From contig NZ_LMUY01000151.1 in the NCBI RefSeq assembly GCF_009765685.1, forward strand, positions 1 to 64,000: DNA of 64,000 nt. Reading direction: 5' to 3'. Under the pieces are notes generated by a model. It worked only from the letters and a program-made list of their open reading frames with translations, was not told where the DNA came from and searched no databases. A program made the position numbers and the translations under genes. This stretch comes from Acidisphaera sp. L21. GTDB lineage: Bacteria > Pseudomonadota > Alphaproteobacteria > Acetobacterales > Acetobacteraceae. Shown here one piece after another: positions 2,442 through 7,637 of the stretch; position 1 is the first letter of the stretch; the number at the start of each line of letters is the position of its first letter.

Positions 2442-2811
2442 CGGTCCGTGATCGGCCGTGGAAACCTTTGTGCCAAAGCGCGAAGTCTTGCAGACGGTCA
2501 CTGTCCGATCCGAGCAGCCGCGATGGTGATAGCTTCCCGCCGGCATCAATGGGAGACTCGCGGCATACACATGTCGGGCGCGAGGTCGGATGGCGAGATC
2601 GAGCAGATCTGGAAGGCTCGCCAGCTGGACCGGACAGAGACGGTAGGTGTTCGACTGGGGCCGCATTGGTTGTGACTTGCTAACAGAACCTCTGGAAAGT
2701 CACCTGGCCCTATGCTGCGTTGAATAGGATACGGCACTGGCGGTGGGATCACTGCTGCAAAGATAGCAAGCACAGGTGCATCTCGAAATATATTAGAGTG
2801 AACGCTCTAGC

Positions 2812-2830
2812 CGTTTGACAGTGTCAAACG
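2812..2830. repeat. Near-perfect palindrome, candidate partition site or operator
   Basis: CGTTTGACAGTGTCAAACG is a 9-1-9 palindrome. A close relative, GTTTGACGGTGTCAAAG, occurs 416 bases downstream (3228-3244). Recurrence of the same dyad upstream of parA suggests a binding site for the partition partner protein or a ParA autorepression operator. Function is inferred from position only. Confidence 0.5.
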
Positions 2831-3227
2831 CAGAAAGTGTGTCCGTCACCGGGGTTGGCCCTATCAAGGCGCGAGATCATCATGTCCACCGACCCCTGAC
2901 CGATATGGCGCCGGTCTTGAAGCGAAGTGGCAAGTCGTGTCGCTTAAGATGCACGAGGCTTGCTCCGCCCCTCTTAGAGCCGCCGTCTAGCACTCGGCCC
3001 ACGTGGCTATCCTGCACTGCATCCACAGTTGCAGCCGCTATGCAATCCTTAAATCCTTCGTCACTCTCATGGGCGTGCTCTTAGCACCCGTTCGTCGCCG
3101 ATCGTCTGCTTCGCGATCACCCTGCTTCGATTCCGTGCAGGAGGCCGCTAGTGCTTCGAAAGCATTTTGATTATTGGTGGAGCCCCTCCCTTGCGATTAA
3201 GCGGTCACGCCCACCTCGCCGCCTACG

Positions 3228-3244
3228 GTTTGACGGTGTCAAAG
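3228..3244. repeat. Second copy of the TTTGAC/GTCAAA dyad
   Basis: GTTTGACGGTGTCAAAG shares 15 of 17 central positions with the palindrome at 2812-2830. It lies about 260 bases before the parA start and is followed by a half-site GTTTGACC at 3251-3258. Arms TTTGAC and GTCAAA are separated by three bases. Probably a parS-like site or operator; not proven. Confidence 0.5.
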
Positions 3245-3502
3245 TGTCTTGTTTGACCGAAACGCGGGGATGACTGCAGCGCTGTCTTAATATCTGAACA
3301 AAATGAGCGTTAAGCCGTGTCTTGCACATGGCGTGGCAACATTAGAAGAGGGTCGACTAACGCGCGAAATAGTGTGTCCTAAGTGACGCAGTCGCCGGCG
3401 TTTGCCTGGCGAAATGGTATCTGTGTGTTCCGTTGCTCACTTATATACTCGACAAGAAGCGGTAATGTCGGAGACTGATCTGCCATCGTTAGGGGTGCCG
3501 AA

Positions 3503-4159
3503 ATGGGCCGTGTAATTTTAGTTTCCAGTCCAAAAGGCGGAACAGGTAAGTCGGCTATATCACGACACCTACTGGTCTGTGCCCAGACCGCGGGGCTGGA
3601 CGCCGTCGGTGTCGATTTTGACCCTCAAAGGTCTTTTTCGAAATGGGCGTCGGCAAGGGAGGCTCAGCGACGGGTTCGATTCCCTGATCAGATCGAGACG
3701 AAGGTTTATGAAGCGACGTTCAAGGACTGGCGCAGCGGCTTCGTACAAGCTTCAGGCGCTAGCCTTGGGATCGTCGATACACCGCCGAATGTGGAAAGTG
3801 CAGTTTCTGAAATGGGTCAAATGTCGGAAAGCGCTGATCTTGTGCTGGTGCCTTGCGGTTGCACCACCGACGATCTTGATAGCGTCGAGCCGTGGATTTT
3901 AGCGTTGCAGAGCAGAGGGGTAAAGCCAATTGTTGTCTTGAATAAGGCTAATTCTCGAGTGCTGTCGTTCAAAAAAATTCGCAGTAGATTTCTAGCAATC
4001 GGCGAGGTTTGTCCCGTCGAGCTGCCCAATCTTGAGGACTTCCATACCTTTTCAGCTGCGGGAATGACATTGCTCGACACCCAAAAGAGCCGGGGAAGGG
4101 ATCCCGTGATTGACCTATGGCAATTCGTTTCCCGCTCTGTTGGCCTGGTGCCGGCATGA
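3503..4159 (+). CDS. parA: ParA-family partition ATPase
   Basis: A 218-residue protein of the short ParA type without an N-terminal DNA-binding extension. The deviant Walker A is visible at residues 10-17 (PKGGTGKS), the second motif in VGVDFDPQRS, and Walker B in LGIVDTPP. ParA proteins dimerise on ATP, bind nucleoid DNA and move partition complexes, so this gene would segregate a plasmid or secondary replicon. It overlaps the downstream gene by ATGA, which gives translational coupling with its presumed partner. The start is an ATG after a stretch with little Shine-Dalgarno signal (GGGGTGCCGAA). Base composition is less GC-rich than the later window, suggesting acquisition. Confidence 0.9.
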   Translation: MGRVILVSSPKGGTGKSAISRHLLVCAQTAGLDAVGVDFDPQRSFSKWASAREAQRRVRFPDQIETKVYEATFKDWRSGFVQASGASLGIVDTPPNVESAVSEMGQMSESADLVLVPCGCTTDDLDSVEPWILALQSRGVKPIVVLNKANSRVLSFKKIRSRFLAIGEVCPVELPNLEDFHTFSAAGMTLLDTQKSRGRDPVIDLWQFVSRSVGLVPA

Positions 4160-4854
4160 CGGTATCTCGGGCTAAGTTGCGTGATCTTGAACCTGTCGCT
4201 GATTTGCCGCCGCCTGAGGCATTGAAAACGATCACGCCGCTCCGACTGGACGAGAGATCTGCCGAGTTGGCTAATCAGGTCGTCGTTGACGCTGAACTCG
4301 TCGACACAATTGAAACCATATTTGCGGGCAGCGGCTTCGTAAAAGATCGCGACAAAGTTCGGATGCTGGTCAATGTTCGGGCCGAGATCAACTCCAAGTG
4401 GAAGGATACTAGAGACGCCTATTTAGCTATTGGCCGCTCGCTACTGGCTTTGGATACCAAGTTTTCACGGGAAGAATCGGAGATGCTTCGGGCGAATATG
4501 GATCAAGTTTTTCCTTTCTCAGATTCCGTCGGGTCTCAGCTTCGTGCATGTGCAAGAGCGGTCGATTCCGGTCGCCTTCCATTCGAAAGCTGCCCCTCGA
4601 GCTATGCTACGGCATATCAAATCGCAATGCTCTCGGACGCTCAGCTTGAAATCGCGAAGCAGAAGGGACTGATACGGATCAACGTAACCAGGTCCGAGAT
4701 CGTTAGCTTTCGTAAGGAGCTTAAGTCGGGAAGTGCTCCTGTAAACGAGGGAGAGACGAAGGCGAAGAGAGCGCTATTGTTACGAAAGCAGAAGAGACTG
4801 GAATTTAATCTCAAGCAGGTTTTAGATGAAATCGCCAGACTCGACGCTGAGTGA
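4156..4854 (+). CDS. Putative partition partner (ParB-like role), unrecognised family
   Basis: A 232-residue protein whose ATG overlaps the parA stop (ATGA), so it is almost certainly co-translated with parA. I do not recognise a classical ParB/Spo0J motif. The middle (about residues 50-170, including VNVRAEINSKWKDTRDAYLA and SSYATAYQIAMLSD) looks like a helical DNA-binding core, and the C-terminal 50 residues are a Lys/Arg/Glu-rich coiled coil (KAKRALLLRKQKRLEFNLKQ). Position, size and coupling point to the centromere-binding partner of ParA. Candidate sites for it are the dyads at 2812 and 3228. The biochemical role is inferred. Confidence 0.6.
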   Translation: MTVSRAKLRDLEPVADLPPPEALKTITPLRLDERSAELANQVVVDAELVDTIETIFAGSGFVKDRDKVRMLVNVRAEINSKWKDTRDAYLAIGRSLLALDTKFSREESEMLRANMDQVFPFSDSVGSQLRACARAVDSGRLPFESCPSSYATAYQIAMLSDAQLEIAKQKGLIRINVTRSEIVSFRKELKSGSAPVNEGETKAKRALLLRKQKRLEFNLKQVLDEIARLDAE

Positions 4855-4958: not shown

Positions 4959-6236
4959 CTAGAACGTTGGCGGCGTGCCGTCCCAATCCGTTGGCGGTTT
5001 GATTGGACAGCCTGATTGCCGCGGTCCGTGGCGACATACAGGGCAGGGCGGCTCTCGCGACCCAGCCCAGCCGGCATACACTCCTGGCCTGAGAAGGCGC
5101 CGGGAGTGGCCGTAAAGGTGCCCGTCTGGAGGTCCTTCGATTTTCATGTGGCTGGTCGGTGCGTTGATCAGGTGCTTCGACGGCGGCAGGCCAATCGTCT
5201 GTTCCGCAAGTTCCTTGGCTCTCCAGAAGGCCATGTAGGTCACATTGCTCTTGGAACCCGGCGCCAGGTAGAGCGCACAGTGGAGTAGGGCAAGGGGCCT
5301 TCGAGATCCTCCGGCCCGCTCATAGGCGTCTCCACGGGCCTGTGCATGGATGATGGCATTGGCGTCTGCCCAACCGATTTCCTCGGTCGCCATGACGGGC
5401 AGCCGACGGAAAGCGTTTCTGGCTGGTTCGCCGTCTTTGACGAGCCGGGCGATGTCGTAACTGGTCGCCGTTTCGTCGCTGGCCAGAATGCTTTTTTGCA
5501 AAGCCGAAAGCAGCCAATAATGGAAATCATCGGTGCGGTCATGGGACGCTGACCGTGCTTGGGCAACCGCGCTTACGTCCTCCACGGTGATCGGCGTGCC
5601 CGGCGCCAGCTCAAACAGCGCTTCGGCGATGCCTATGAGACAGCGGCCGTCGACACCGCACAAGCAAGGGACGAGGGCGCGGGCGTCATCGCTGAGTTCT
5701 AGGGATTGCCCCTTGTGGCTTTAGGCATGGGCCAGCAGTGCCAGCCAATCATCCGCGCCAAACGGCTCCAGCCGATATGTTTCGCAGCGGCTGAGGAGGT
5801 CTGAGACCAAATCGAACGACACGTTGGCGGTGGTGGCACCGATGAAAACGATGGTCCCGTTCTCGACAGGAGCTCCTGGACTCCGCGATTCCCATGGTGA
5901 ACCGCATCGTCAAGGATCAGGGTAGTGCGTCCTGTCGCCTGCAGGTCATCCTTCGCGTCAGCGTGGATCTTGCGCAAGTCGGCGGTGCCTGAGGTGACCG
6001 CAGAGATCTTCTCGAAACGCAGGTTGCTTTTGGCCGCTATCATACTGGCAATGGTTGTTTCCCGACTCCGGCCTGGCCGTGGAGGATGCAGGACGGCGAA
6101 CGGCGGAGGCCAACTTTCGACCAGGAGGGCGATCCGGTGCAAAGATCTGTCGCCGGCCCACCAGGTCCTATACCTTGGTAGGACGCAACTGCTCAGTCAC
6201 AGGCTTCGGCGCTGAGATTTCGAAAAGGGACGGGAG
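4959..6236 (-). pseudogene. rarA: Degraded rarA (mgsA), replication-associated recombination ATPase
   Basis: Read on the minus strand, pieces of RarA appear in order but in different frames. The N-terminus has PVTEQLRP followed by an in-frame stop (about 6180-6230). Next comes the AAA+ region with SNLRFEKISAVTSGTADLRK and LILDDAVHHGNRGVQELL (5850-6040), in which the Walker A is spoiled (GRSRETTIASM). The central part LFELAPGTPITVEDV through YWLLSALQKSILASD (5480-5620) and LPPSKHLINAPTSHMK (5135-5180) follows. A final fragment, SGQECMPAGLGRESRPALYV, lies in yet another frame (about 5040-5110). Several frameshifts, a stop and a lost P-loop make it non-functional. It lies between the par and rep genes. 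Confidence 0.75.
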
Positions 6237-6404: not shown

Positions 6405-6620
6405 TGGGGACTCTACATAGCGCCAAGACGAGTCGGGCTCTCTGGTTCCAGTTGATCATGAACAGAGCCTCCGGGGACTTCACATAGACAAGTGGGGACT
6501 TCACATATTGACCCCCTGAAAGATCAAGGGGTTAAAGATCTTGTCCCGGGGACACCGCATAGACATCACTAATAGGAGTCTCAATAGACTCTTCAATTAG
6601 CCTGCTATGTGAAGTCCCCA
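6405..6620. repeat. Iteron-like repeats upstream of repA
   Basis: Four good copies of CTATGTGRAGTCCCCA lie here: 6405-6422, 6472-6488 and 6493-6508 on the minus strand, and 6605-6620 on the plus strand. A degenerate copy (GGGGACACCGCATAG) is at 6548-6562. A small inverted repeat, GAGTCT/AGACTC (6576-6591), sits in the presumed repA promoter. The plus-oriented copy at 6605 overlaps the first possible repA start codon, which would let RepA repress its own gene. This arrangement is typical of iteron-controlled plasmid origins; which side is the origin is not decided. Confidence 0.8.
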
Positions 6621-7637
6621 GCGACAAAGCCCACGAACCTGTGGCAACCATCGTCTAAGATCACAGAGAGACGACGGATTATGGGCGAAATCCATGAGCT
6701 GTTACTAACCCAGGGCAAGCAGGCAACGCTTGCCAACGGGGCTAACAGGTCCGTTGTGGAGGCAGCAGCCTCCTACATGGCTGACGAGGACAGTGGCCTT
6801 GGCTTTGCTTATTCAGGCTGGGCGCAATGTGCGCTTCCGCATAAGAAAATTGCTGACGACGCTCGATGGTCGATTACGAGCGAGCGCGTTCTGCTCGTTG
6901 TTGAGCCAGGATTGAGGCGCATCAACCAAACATCTGAATTAGAGCCTATTGGCGTTCCATTTGGATCACATGCACGATTAATCCTCCTTTATTTGCAAAC
7001 AGAAGCTCTGCGGACAAAGTCCCGCGAGGTGGAACTTGGCCGGTCGATGCGTAATTGGCTGGAACGTCTAAATGTCAGTTACGGCGGAAAAACCGGTCAG
7101 AGCGTGCGGGATCAGGCCGAGCGCATTTCGCGCTGCCGGCTCACATTTCATCTAACGACCGGTTCCGAAGGATCTGGCCTTGTTAACCAAAACATTGTGG
7201 ATCGAGCACTCTTCATAGATGGTGACGACAAGGGCGGTCAGGGACGCTTAACACTTGAGACCGCGAAGCTCAGCGAAGGCTTCTACGAACAGCTGAAGAA
7301 GCATCCAGTCCCTTTGGAAGAATCCGCCATTCGGTCTCTCGCGAGTAATGCACCCGCCTTAGATGCTTATCTTTGGCTTGCATATAGGCTGCATGTGCTG
7401 AAATCACCTAAACTTGTGTCTTGGACTGCGCTCAAAGGCCAGTTCGGCACAGCTTACTCGAAATTGTCGTCATTCAAGCAGAACTTTACTCACACCCTTG
7501 CCATGGCTACCGCTGTTTATCCTGACGCCAAGCTGGAATTACTACCTGACGGGGTGGTTCTAAAGCCATCTAAACCACCTGTACAACCGCGCCAGATCAG
7601 CGTCCCAAAATTCTTCTTGGGCACTGGCACAGACTAG
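6609..7637 (+). CDS. repA: Plasmid replication initiator RepA (RepA_C family)
   Basis: Up to 342 residues. The N-terminal half has the family signature EAAASYMADEDSGLGFAYSG, then WSITSERVLLVVEPGLRR. The C-terminal domain carries LASNAPALDAYLWLAYRLH, VSWTALKGQFGTAYSKLSSF and TAVYPDAKLELLPDG, which match the 'plasmid encoded RepA protein' family of alphaproteobacterial and acetic acid bacterial plasmids. It would bind the flanking iterons and open the origin. The GTG at 6609 lies inside an iteron; the ATG at 6681 has a better ribosome site (GAGAGA), but the residues before it (SSKITERRRIM) also look natural. The gene appears intact and less GC-rich than the chromosomal part. Confidence 0.9.
   Translation: MKSPATKPTNLWQPSSKITERRRIMGEIHELLLTQGKQATLANGANRSVVEAAASYMADEDSGLGFAYSGWAQCALPHKKIADDARWSITSERVLLVVEPGLRRINQTSELEPIGVPFGSHARLILLYLQTEALRTKSREVELGRSMRNWLERLNVSYGGKTGQSVRDQAERISRCRLTFHLTTGSEGSGLVNQNIVDRALFIDGDDKGGQGRLTLETAKLSEGFYEQLKKHPVPLEESAIRSLASNAPALDAYLWLAYRLHVLKSPKLVSWTALKGQFGTAYSKLSSFKQNFTHTLAMATAVYPDAKLELLPDGVVLKPSKPPVQPRQISVPKFFLGTGTD

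Follow-up and report, generated by a model that had tools for sequence, protein, structure and literature searches.

Two matched near-palindromes upstream of a small parA gene in Acidisphaera sp. L21 are candidates for the handle by which a plasmid is probably passed to daughter cells. We think it likely that they form the centromere, and probably also the operator, of a plasmid partition cassette that couples a small ParA to a ParB-like partner of the CTPase-less kind. The stretch of DNA analyzed here, referred to as the window, comprises the first 64 kb (64,000 nucleotides) of a 217,578-bp contig in a draft genome of 162 contigs. Dyad 1, CGTTTGACAGTGTCAAACG, occupies positions 2812–2830, about 690 bp 5' of parA, and consists of two arms of 9 bp each separated by one central base. 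Dyad 2, GTTTGACGGTGTCAAAG, occupies positions 3228–3244, about 275 bp 5' of parA, and its right half reads CTTTGAC; both are listed, without assigned strand, as candidate parS-like binding sites. A half-site, GTTTGACC, follows shortly 3' of dyad 2 (3251–3258, forward strand) and is a feature of sequence only. The original prediction had named these three elements, and each was found in the window as it described them, at 2812, 3228 and 3251.

The strength of the two dyads lies in their agreement with one another. Dyad 1 alone is weak, because dinucleotide shuffles of positions 2502–3502 yield a lone palindrome of equal quality in 48 of 2000 cases; in contrast, a pair of palindromes with at least 13 of the central 15 bases agreeing was obtained in none of 2000 shuffles of the same segment, and the claim that the two share one dyad is borne out. 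Dyad 2 is an imperfect palindrome and matches the dyad pattern exactly on the forward strand and with three mismatches on the opposite strand. Allowing up to three mismatches, the pattern is found in the window only at the places of the two dyads (4 matches, both strands counted), whereas shuffled windows give a mean of 0.61 matches and reach 4 in 1 of 100 shuffles. A search for further copies, also proposed originally, returned no other exact one: exact matches to GTTTGACNNTGTCAAA in the draft genome (6.4 Mb, 162 contigs) are confined to the same two places, and with up to two mismatches allowed the pattern matches 21 times and its reversed control 12 times. Chance may account for the half-site at 3251, since the bare 7-mer GTTTGAC shows no enrichment in the window (7 occurrences against 5.07 expected). 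The dyads had been placed in a gene-free kilobase, a fair description, as the segment from 2683 to 3503 has only one listed open reading frame of at least 80 codons, a mechanical 89-residue frame (2815–3084). A scan of positions 2600–3560 found no promoter or terminator consensus, the promoter part of the scan covering sigma-70-type sequences only. A second inverted repeat, TAGAGTGAACGCTCTA (2794–2809), ends 2 bp 5' of dyad 1.

The first gene of the pair (3503–4159, forward strand) codes for a small ParA-type ATPase of 218 residues, with Pfam matches to CbiA (1.2e-8) and MipZ (3.6e-7) and with phmmer matches in the PDB to MipZ, ParF and ParA chains. The P-loop is N-terminal, KGGTGKS can be read in the translation, and there is no N-terminal DNA-binding extension. 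By Pfam, phmmer and the KGGTGKS motif the protein is a deviant Walker ATPase of the ParA type, as type I ParABS systems demand. The start of the second gene (4156–4854, forward strand) overlaps the parA stop; its product, of 232 residues, is the partner, which we propose to be a CTPase-less, ParB-like site-binding protein.

Relatives of the partner are present in 59 of 397 Acetobacteraceae genomes and in 71 plasmid records, including records from Acetobacter, Azospirillum and Roseomonas, where most of them carry the label hypothetical protein or DUF3102. A sample of 289 genomes from across the class has them in 3, the genome of the window being counted in. Upstream sequence was analyzed for 80 of the 103 other Acetobacteraceae matches (L190 was added later) and for eight plasmid loci, L009–L016, some of which represent the same plasmid; these 88 and the window make up 89 loci. 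In 87 of the 89, BLAST places the relative after a small ParA; L114 has no partner match and L079 no parA match. A scan of genome contigs with the single protein found no relative, and the diverse alignment A1 was too variable for this purpose; an alignment of a close clade worked. Viral contigs contributed one distant relative, L174, which has no recognized dyad. With the genome-contig loci and L174 the collection rose to 124 loci, or 87 once near-duplicates had been removed. In 84 of these 87, no more than 20 bp separate the partner from the parA stop, and in 59 there is a 4-base overlap. The pair in the window sits on a long branch of the partner tree, within no starred clade, and its closest relative by tblastn shares 51% identity over 69% of the partner; the pair thus lacks close homologues in which conservation of the window's own dyad could be seen. 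Literature searches, which covered listed titles and abstract openings in a library with few subscription journals, found nothing on the partner or its sites and no match for the dyad sequences or for CTPase-lacking ParB-like proteins in Alphaproteobacteria.

The dyads might also be read as RepA-binding sites, iterons or a rep operator, of a plasmid origin. A RepA_C gene is detected by Pfam at 6609–7637 of the window, and a rep gene is annotated near the pair in L011, L013, L015 and L016. However, L009, L010, L012 and L014 have no annotated rep in the fetched flanks (up to 4 kb) and all four nevertheless keep a dyad; moreover, annotated rep genes are located past the partner, with parA between them and the dyad. 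We regard a role in replication as very improbable. Other genes around the cassette include a ParD/ParE-type toxin-antitoxin pair close to the contig start (67–686), an open reading frame (2049–2312) with a weak, sub-cut-off Pfam match to an IS630-type transposase helix-turn-helix, probably a transposon relic, and, on the reverse strand, a partial gene for an MgsA/RarA-type AAA+ ATPase (4959–5663; MgsA_C, 2e-22) whose N-terminal half is apparently missing from the same frame.

The original prediction had staked itself on conservation of a dyad beside homologous parA-partner pairs, and it survived the comparison: 45% of 86 loci (one of the 87 was dropped, its upstream sequence being too short) have a palindrome with a score of at least 8 in the 300 bp before parA, against 1.9% of 258 shuffles. 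The proportion elsewhere is 7% for 82 stretches between −800 and −500 and 2% for 86 taken from within parA. In the large clade that path and identity place nearest to the window (support 91, unstarred, 30 rows), a dyad precedes parA in all 30 loci. It has the form TTAGACA(n)TGTCTAA in 26, mostly as ATTAGACATGTCTAAT, and in the other four it is a hybrid, (G/A)TTTGACATGTCTAATT, whose left half, TTTGAC, is that of the window. Hybrid dyads are found at L061, L064, L066, L067 and L068, of which L066 was left out of the 30 as a near-duplicate. Whole GTTTGAC dyads precede parA in the more distant pairs L111, L122 and L190, and in L121 with an imperfect centre; the GTTTGAC half-site of dyad 2 is thus common to these four loci and to the hybrids. 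Other clades have dyads of their own: TTTTAC(G/A)..GTAAAA; GTTTTCCCTTGTAAAAC, present twice in several loci; TTTTACACGTGTAAAA, in up to three copies; GTTTACCGGTAAAC, in two copies; GTTCAACCGGTTGAAC, TTTAGCCGGCTAAA, TCTTACGCCGTAAGA and others. The core TTTAGCCGGCTAAA belongs to the dyads upstream of parA in L092 and L093, the latter reading GTTTAGCCGGCTAAAC. In a stack of 32 TTAGAC-type dyads from 25 loci, the core carries 1.89 bits per base against 0.14 for the flanks, the core value being inflated because the rows were selected by motif.

The sequence of the dyad follows the partner tree. Strict typing assigned 62 of the 87 loci to 15 types and left 25 without a type; the types were defined by eye on these very loci, and variants of the typing assigned 61 of the 87, with L111 and L122 missed, or 63, among which the type of L105 (TTTTCCCCAGTGAAA) is doubtful. 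Fourteen changes on the partner tree, the fewest that 15 types allow, account for the typed loci, whereas 300 shuffles needed a mean of 35.0 and never fewer than 31. With the types at this minimum, the partner tree calls for no separate origins of the GTTTGAC dyads in the window and in the distant clade. This is a matter of consistency rather than proof, since typing was by eye and related loci share sites by descent; the flanks of the TTAGAC-type dyads, however, show no such conservation. Together, the enrichment of palindromes before homologous parA genes and the agreement of their sequence with the partner tree uphold the view that the dyads are good candidates for a new centromere or operator.

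The position of the dyads bears on whether they could be an operator only, with the partner as a repressor and the centromere elsewhere or absent. The dyads do precede parA, two or more copies are present in 20 of the 62 typed loci, and in five Acetobacter-type loci one copy begins about 35 bp 5' of the start codon, all of which would suit a repressor. At other loci, however, the dyads lie up to 224 bp away, and those of the window are some 275 and 690 bp from parA, distances less suited to simple repression, and the sigma-70-type scan gave no promoter match near the window dyads. A purely regulatory role therefore seems rather unlikely to us, if the strongest of the alternatives considered here. 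Dyad 1 is also more distant from parA than every typed dyad of the relatives (maximum 224 bp; the whole fetched upstream sequence was scanned for the TTAGAC and hybrid type, giving 68 sites at up to 215 bp, and the other types were sought within 400 bp), and for this reason we hold it to be the less certain of the two.

Counts across genomes address the specificity of the association. In the 397 genomes, ATTAGACN1-3GTCTAAT occurs at 11 sites (reversed control, 1), and all 11 are just before a parA-partner pair. Similarly, TTWGACATGTCWAA occurs at 25 sites in the 59 partner-carrying genomes (control, 1), 21 of them before such a pair. The four off-locus sites were considered as secondary centromeres and, after inspection of their surroundings, were read as coincidence. 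Two of them span start codons, of an annotated fliE in L192 and of a similarly opening gene in L195; these gene starts (L192:2890 and L195:1421) read TTAGACATGTCTAA, the letters of the partition dyad, again probably by coincidence. The other two, L193 and L194, are on a 161-kb contig of genome G268, one of them 71 bases 5' of an open reading frame resembling a transporter-binding protein and the other without a clear gene. The window's own type behaves differently: GTTTGACN1-3GTCAAAC is found 10 times in the 397 genomes, whereas its reversed control is found 12 times, 5 of them in a single genome. Four of the 10 GTTTGAC sites precede a parA-partner pair (in the window, G107, G131 and G373:C592); around the other six, no ParA and no significant partner match was found in the 1.6–3 kb fetched, and GTTTGAC dyads are therefore not exclusive to such loci. 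A GTTTGACCGCGTCAAAC site at L191:1491, with no parA-partner pair beside it, is in G373, the genome in which a different contig (L190) has a GTTTGAC dyad before such a pair. Numbers alone do not set the GTTTGAC dyad apart, and the argument is carried by its placement and by the hybrids. These counts also bear on a further alternative, that the dyads are the operator of an unrelated regulator, for example of the TetR family, whose gene has been lost and whose nearness to parA is accidental. GTTTGAC dyads away from parA-partner pairs, and the inverted repeat 2 bp before dyad 1, would agree with it. On the other hand, such an accident sits poorly with the 11 of 11 ATTAGAC dyads, family-wide, that precede a pair, and with the upstream neighbors in L009–L016, which differ in annotation (hypothetical protein, methyltransferase, IclR regulator, transposase, large methylase-type open reading frames) and include no TetR protein. 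We consider this explanation improbable.

The original prediction had called the partner unrecognized. This no longer holds in full: the protein has no Pfam match above the cut-off, but its predicted fold resembles the DNA-binding domains of ParB and KorB. The AlphaFold model (mean pLDDT 83; 32 aligned sequences) predicts, in order, a low-confidence region (residues 1–30), two short helices, a long helix (65–102), a compact helical domain extending to residue 192 and a C-terminal helix (198–231). The long helix together with the putative ParB/KorB/Noc-like DNA-binding domain (residues 61–195; positions 4336–4740, forward strand) was modelled with a mean pLDDT of 92.5. In VIA-align its top match is KorB (Z 8.4, 2.6 Å over 96 residues; KorB-operator, 7.4, 2.8 Å over 95), and matches are also found with Spo0J-parS (Z 7.0, 3.4 Å, 99 residues), ParB (Z 7.3, but at 8.2 Å) and Noc (Z 7.0, 6.8 Å; Noc 6y93, Z 6.4, 3.9 Å, 98 residues), with SopB, VirB and P1 ParB in lower rows. 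These Z values are middling, as helical models often reach them, and the unrelated chaperone Raf1 (Z 6.7) ranks amid the ParB rows. Foldseek returned no match with E below 0.001, and a profile search of the PDB gave nothing below E 0.09, the matches being mostly to coiled coils on the C-terminal helix. A ParB/KorB-type fold is thus probable, not certain. ParB_N, the CTPase domain, was not found by Pfam in the window partner at E 0.1, and it is absent from the families that 39 aligned partners match at E 0.01. Six of the 39 match DUF3102 (PF11300), a protein of unknown function in Pfam (best E 5.4e-6); the window partner has no such match at E 0.01. Matches in PHROGs are mostly to unnamed families, and a single NCBIfam match was rejected as spurious. 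The model consists of helices, without any reported strand, and this tells against a ribbon-helix-helix partner.

The residues that change most closely with the dyad fall where DNA-reading helices are predicted. The alignment columns best explained by dyad type correspond to window residues 124, 151, 148, 127, 125 and 155. In the model, residues 124, 125 and 127 are at the start of the putative recognition helix (residues 123–137, DSVGSQLRACARAVD; positions 4522–4566, forward strand), whose role in recognition we infer, and residues 148, 151 and 155 are at or in the next helix. The next columns are 86, 158, 195, 112 and 87, among which 86, 195, 112 and 87 are outside the predicted reading helices. 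All 30 of the 30 TTAGAC and hybrid loci have SDATATQ or SEATATQ at the start of the recognition helix, where the window has SDSVGSQ. In the reported comparison of ParB and Noc, specificity resides in four residues in the helix-turn-helix and the adjacent helix (PMC7383237), and the co-varying columns presumably correspond to these in position. Phylogeny alone could, however, yield such patterns of residue and dyad. In a sample in which 52 of 78 fetched genome loci were typed, 12 genomes have two or more typed systems, and none of the 18 within-genome pairs shares a dyad type; shuffles gave a mean of 3.2 same-type pairs and none in 1.7% of cases. The absence of same-type coexistence fits partition incompatibility, with the same caveat of phylogeny.

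It had also been stated that the dyads bear no likeness to chromosomal parS. The half-sites do not sustain this, as GTTTGAC differs from GTTTCAC, the half-site of the chromosomal parS described as TGTTTCAC-GTGAAACA (PMC7383237), at one base in seven; the spacing of the halves does, as it clearly differs from that of the canonical 16-bp TGTTTCACGTGAAACA, and the window dyads do not classify as canonical parS. Could they be degenerate chromosomal parS sites, bound by the canonical ParB of the host? The one-base difference would allow it, and the draft genome has four ParB_N matches (contigs C162, C85, C122 and C87). None of the four is on C101, the contig of the window, however, and neither the spacing, nor the way the sites follow the partner tree, nor the coexistence of several types in one host is what such an origin would lead one to expect. 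We judge this the least probable of the alternatives, its chance being close to nil.

We therefore return to the partition cassette, in which the dyads are very likely sites bound by the partner. Each dyad would be bound by a partner dimer, one helix-turn-helix domain per half-site. The partner would build a partition complex at the dyads, and ParA, bound to the nucleoid and stimulated by partner-covered plasmid DNA, would move the complex over the nucleoid. Since the dyads precede parA and ParA itself lacks a DNA-binding extension, the partner is probably also the repressor of its own operon, acting from the dyads. Possibly the partner slides on DNA without nucleotide as ParT does, a suggestion that we make tentatively. 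A 2026 survey of PLSDB counts 31,192 plasmids (52.1%) with no or unidentified partition system (PMC13245405), and the partner family may fill part of this gap for Acetobacteraceae and Azospirillum plasmids. The partner sequences paired with their predicted sites also offer a ready set for a study of protein-site co-change.

The cassette can be compared with several known systems. With the canonical HTH-ParB/parS and Noc/NBS systems it shares palindromes with TTT-n-n-C halves; it differs from them in that the partner has no CTPase domain and in that the typed partner clades own distinct sites. KorB of RK2 binds CTP and forms a sliding clamp (PMC11790492; entry 8qa8), and its OB site, which is reported to contain TTTAGCGGCTAAA (PMC11790492), resembles the L092 and L093 dyad, in keeping with a reading head of the ParB/KorB type. 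The partner, although KorB is the top structural match of its modelled domain, has no counterpart of KorB's CTP-binding domain. The ParAs of RHH-ParB systems such as pSM19035 are small (type Ib). As in the window, ParA is there accompanied by a partner. The sites of the RHH partners overlap the par promoters, and these partners are described as binding arrays of 7-bp repeats (PMC9499535), whereas the window has dyads and a partner predicted to be HTH-like. The repABC systems of alphaproteobacterial plasmids have a centromere-like site near the partition genes, as is proposed for the cassette, and by their description are set apart by a different ParB (RepB) and a different operon (PMC9040568).

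By analogy, the closest described mechanism is that of ParA-ParT-parS of the Streptomyces plasmid SCP2. In the account given of that system, ParA is followed by a CTPase-less ParB-like clamp, ParT, which loads at an 18-bp inverted-repeat parS and diffuses nucleotide-free (PMC12260392). The predicted layout of the partner is also reminiscent of ParT, with a flexible N-terminus and a long helix before the helix-turn-helix; ParT is reported to end in a C-terminal dimerization domain where the model of the partner has a C-terminal helix. The two differ in the place of their sites, parS of SCP2 lying inside parT and the dyads of the window and its relatives before parA, and in their distribution: 44 of 45 ParA-linked ParT homologues are reported from Actinomycetota (PMC12260392), whereas the partner family is found in Alphaproteobacteria. 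No relationship in sequence was detected, hhalign giving a probability below 1% (0.8% for A1 against ParT and 8 homologues, 0.4% against ParT alone). We speculate, while giving it less than an even chance, that the partner represents a second, independently arisen ParT-like lineage without a CTPase, common on Acetobacteraceae plasmids, which would load nucleotide-free and in which the palindromes of each clade would serve as a compatibility code. If so, the code would let several such plasmids share one cell, and the partners and their sites would be of use in asking whether CTP-free ParB-like clamps, such as ParT of SCP2, arose more than once.
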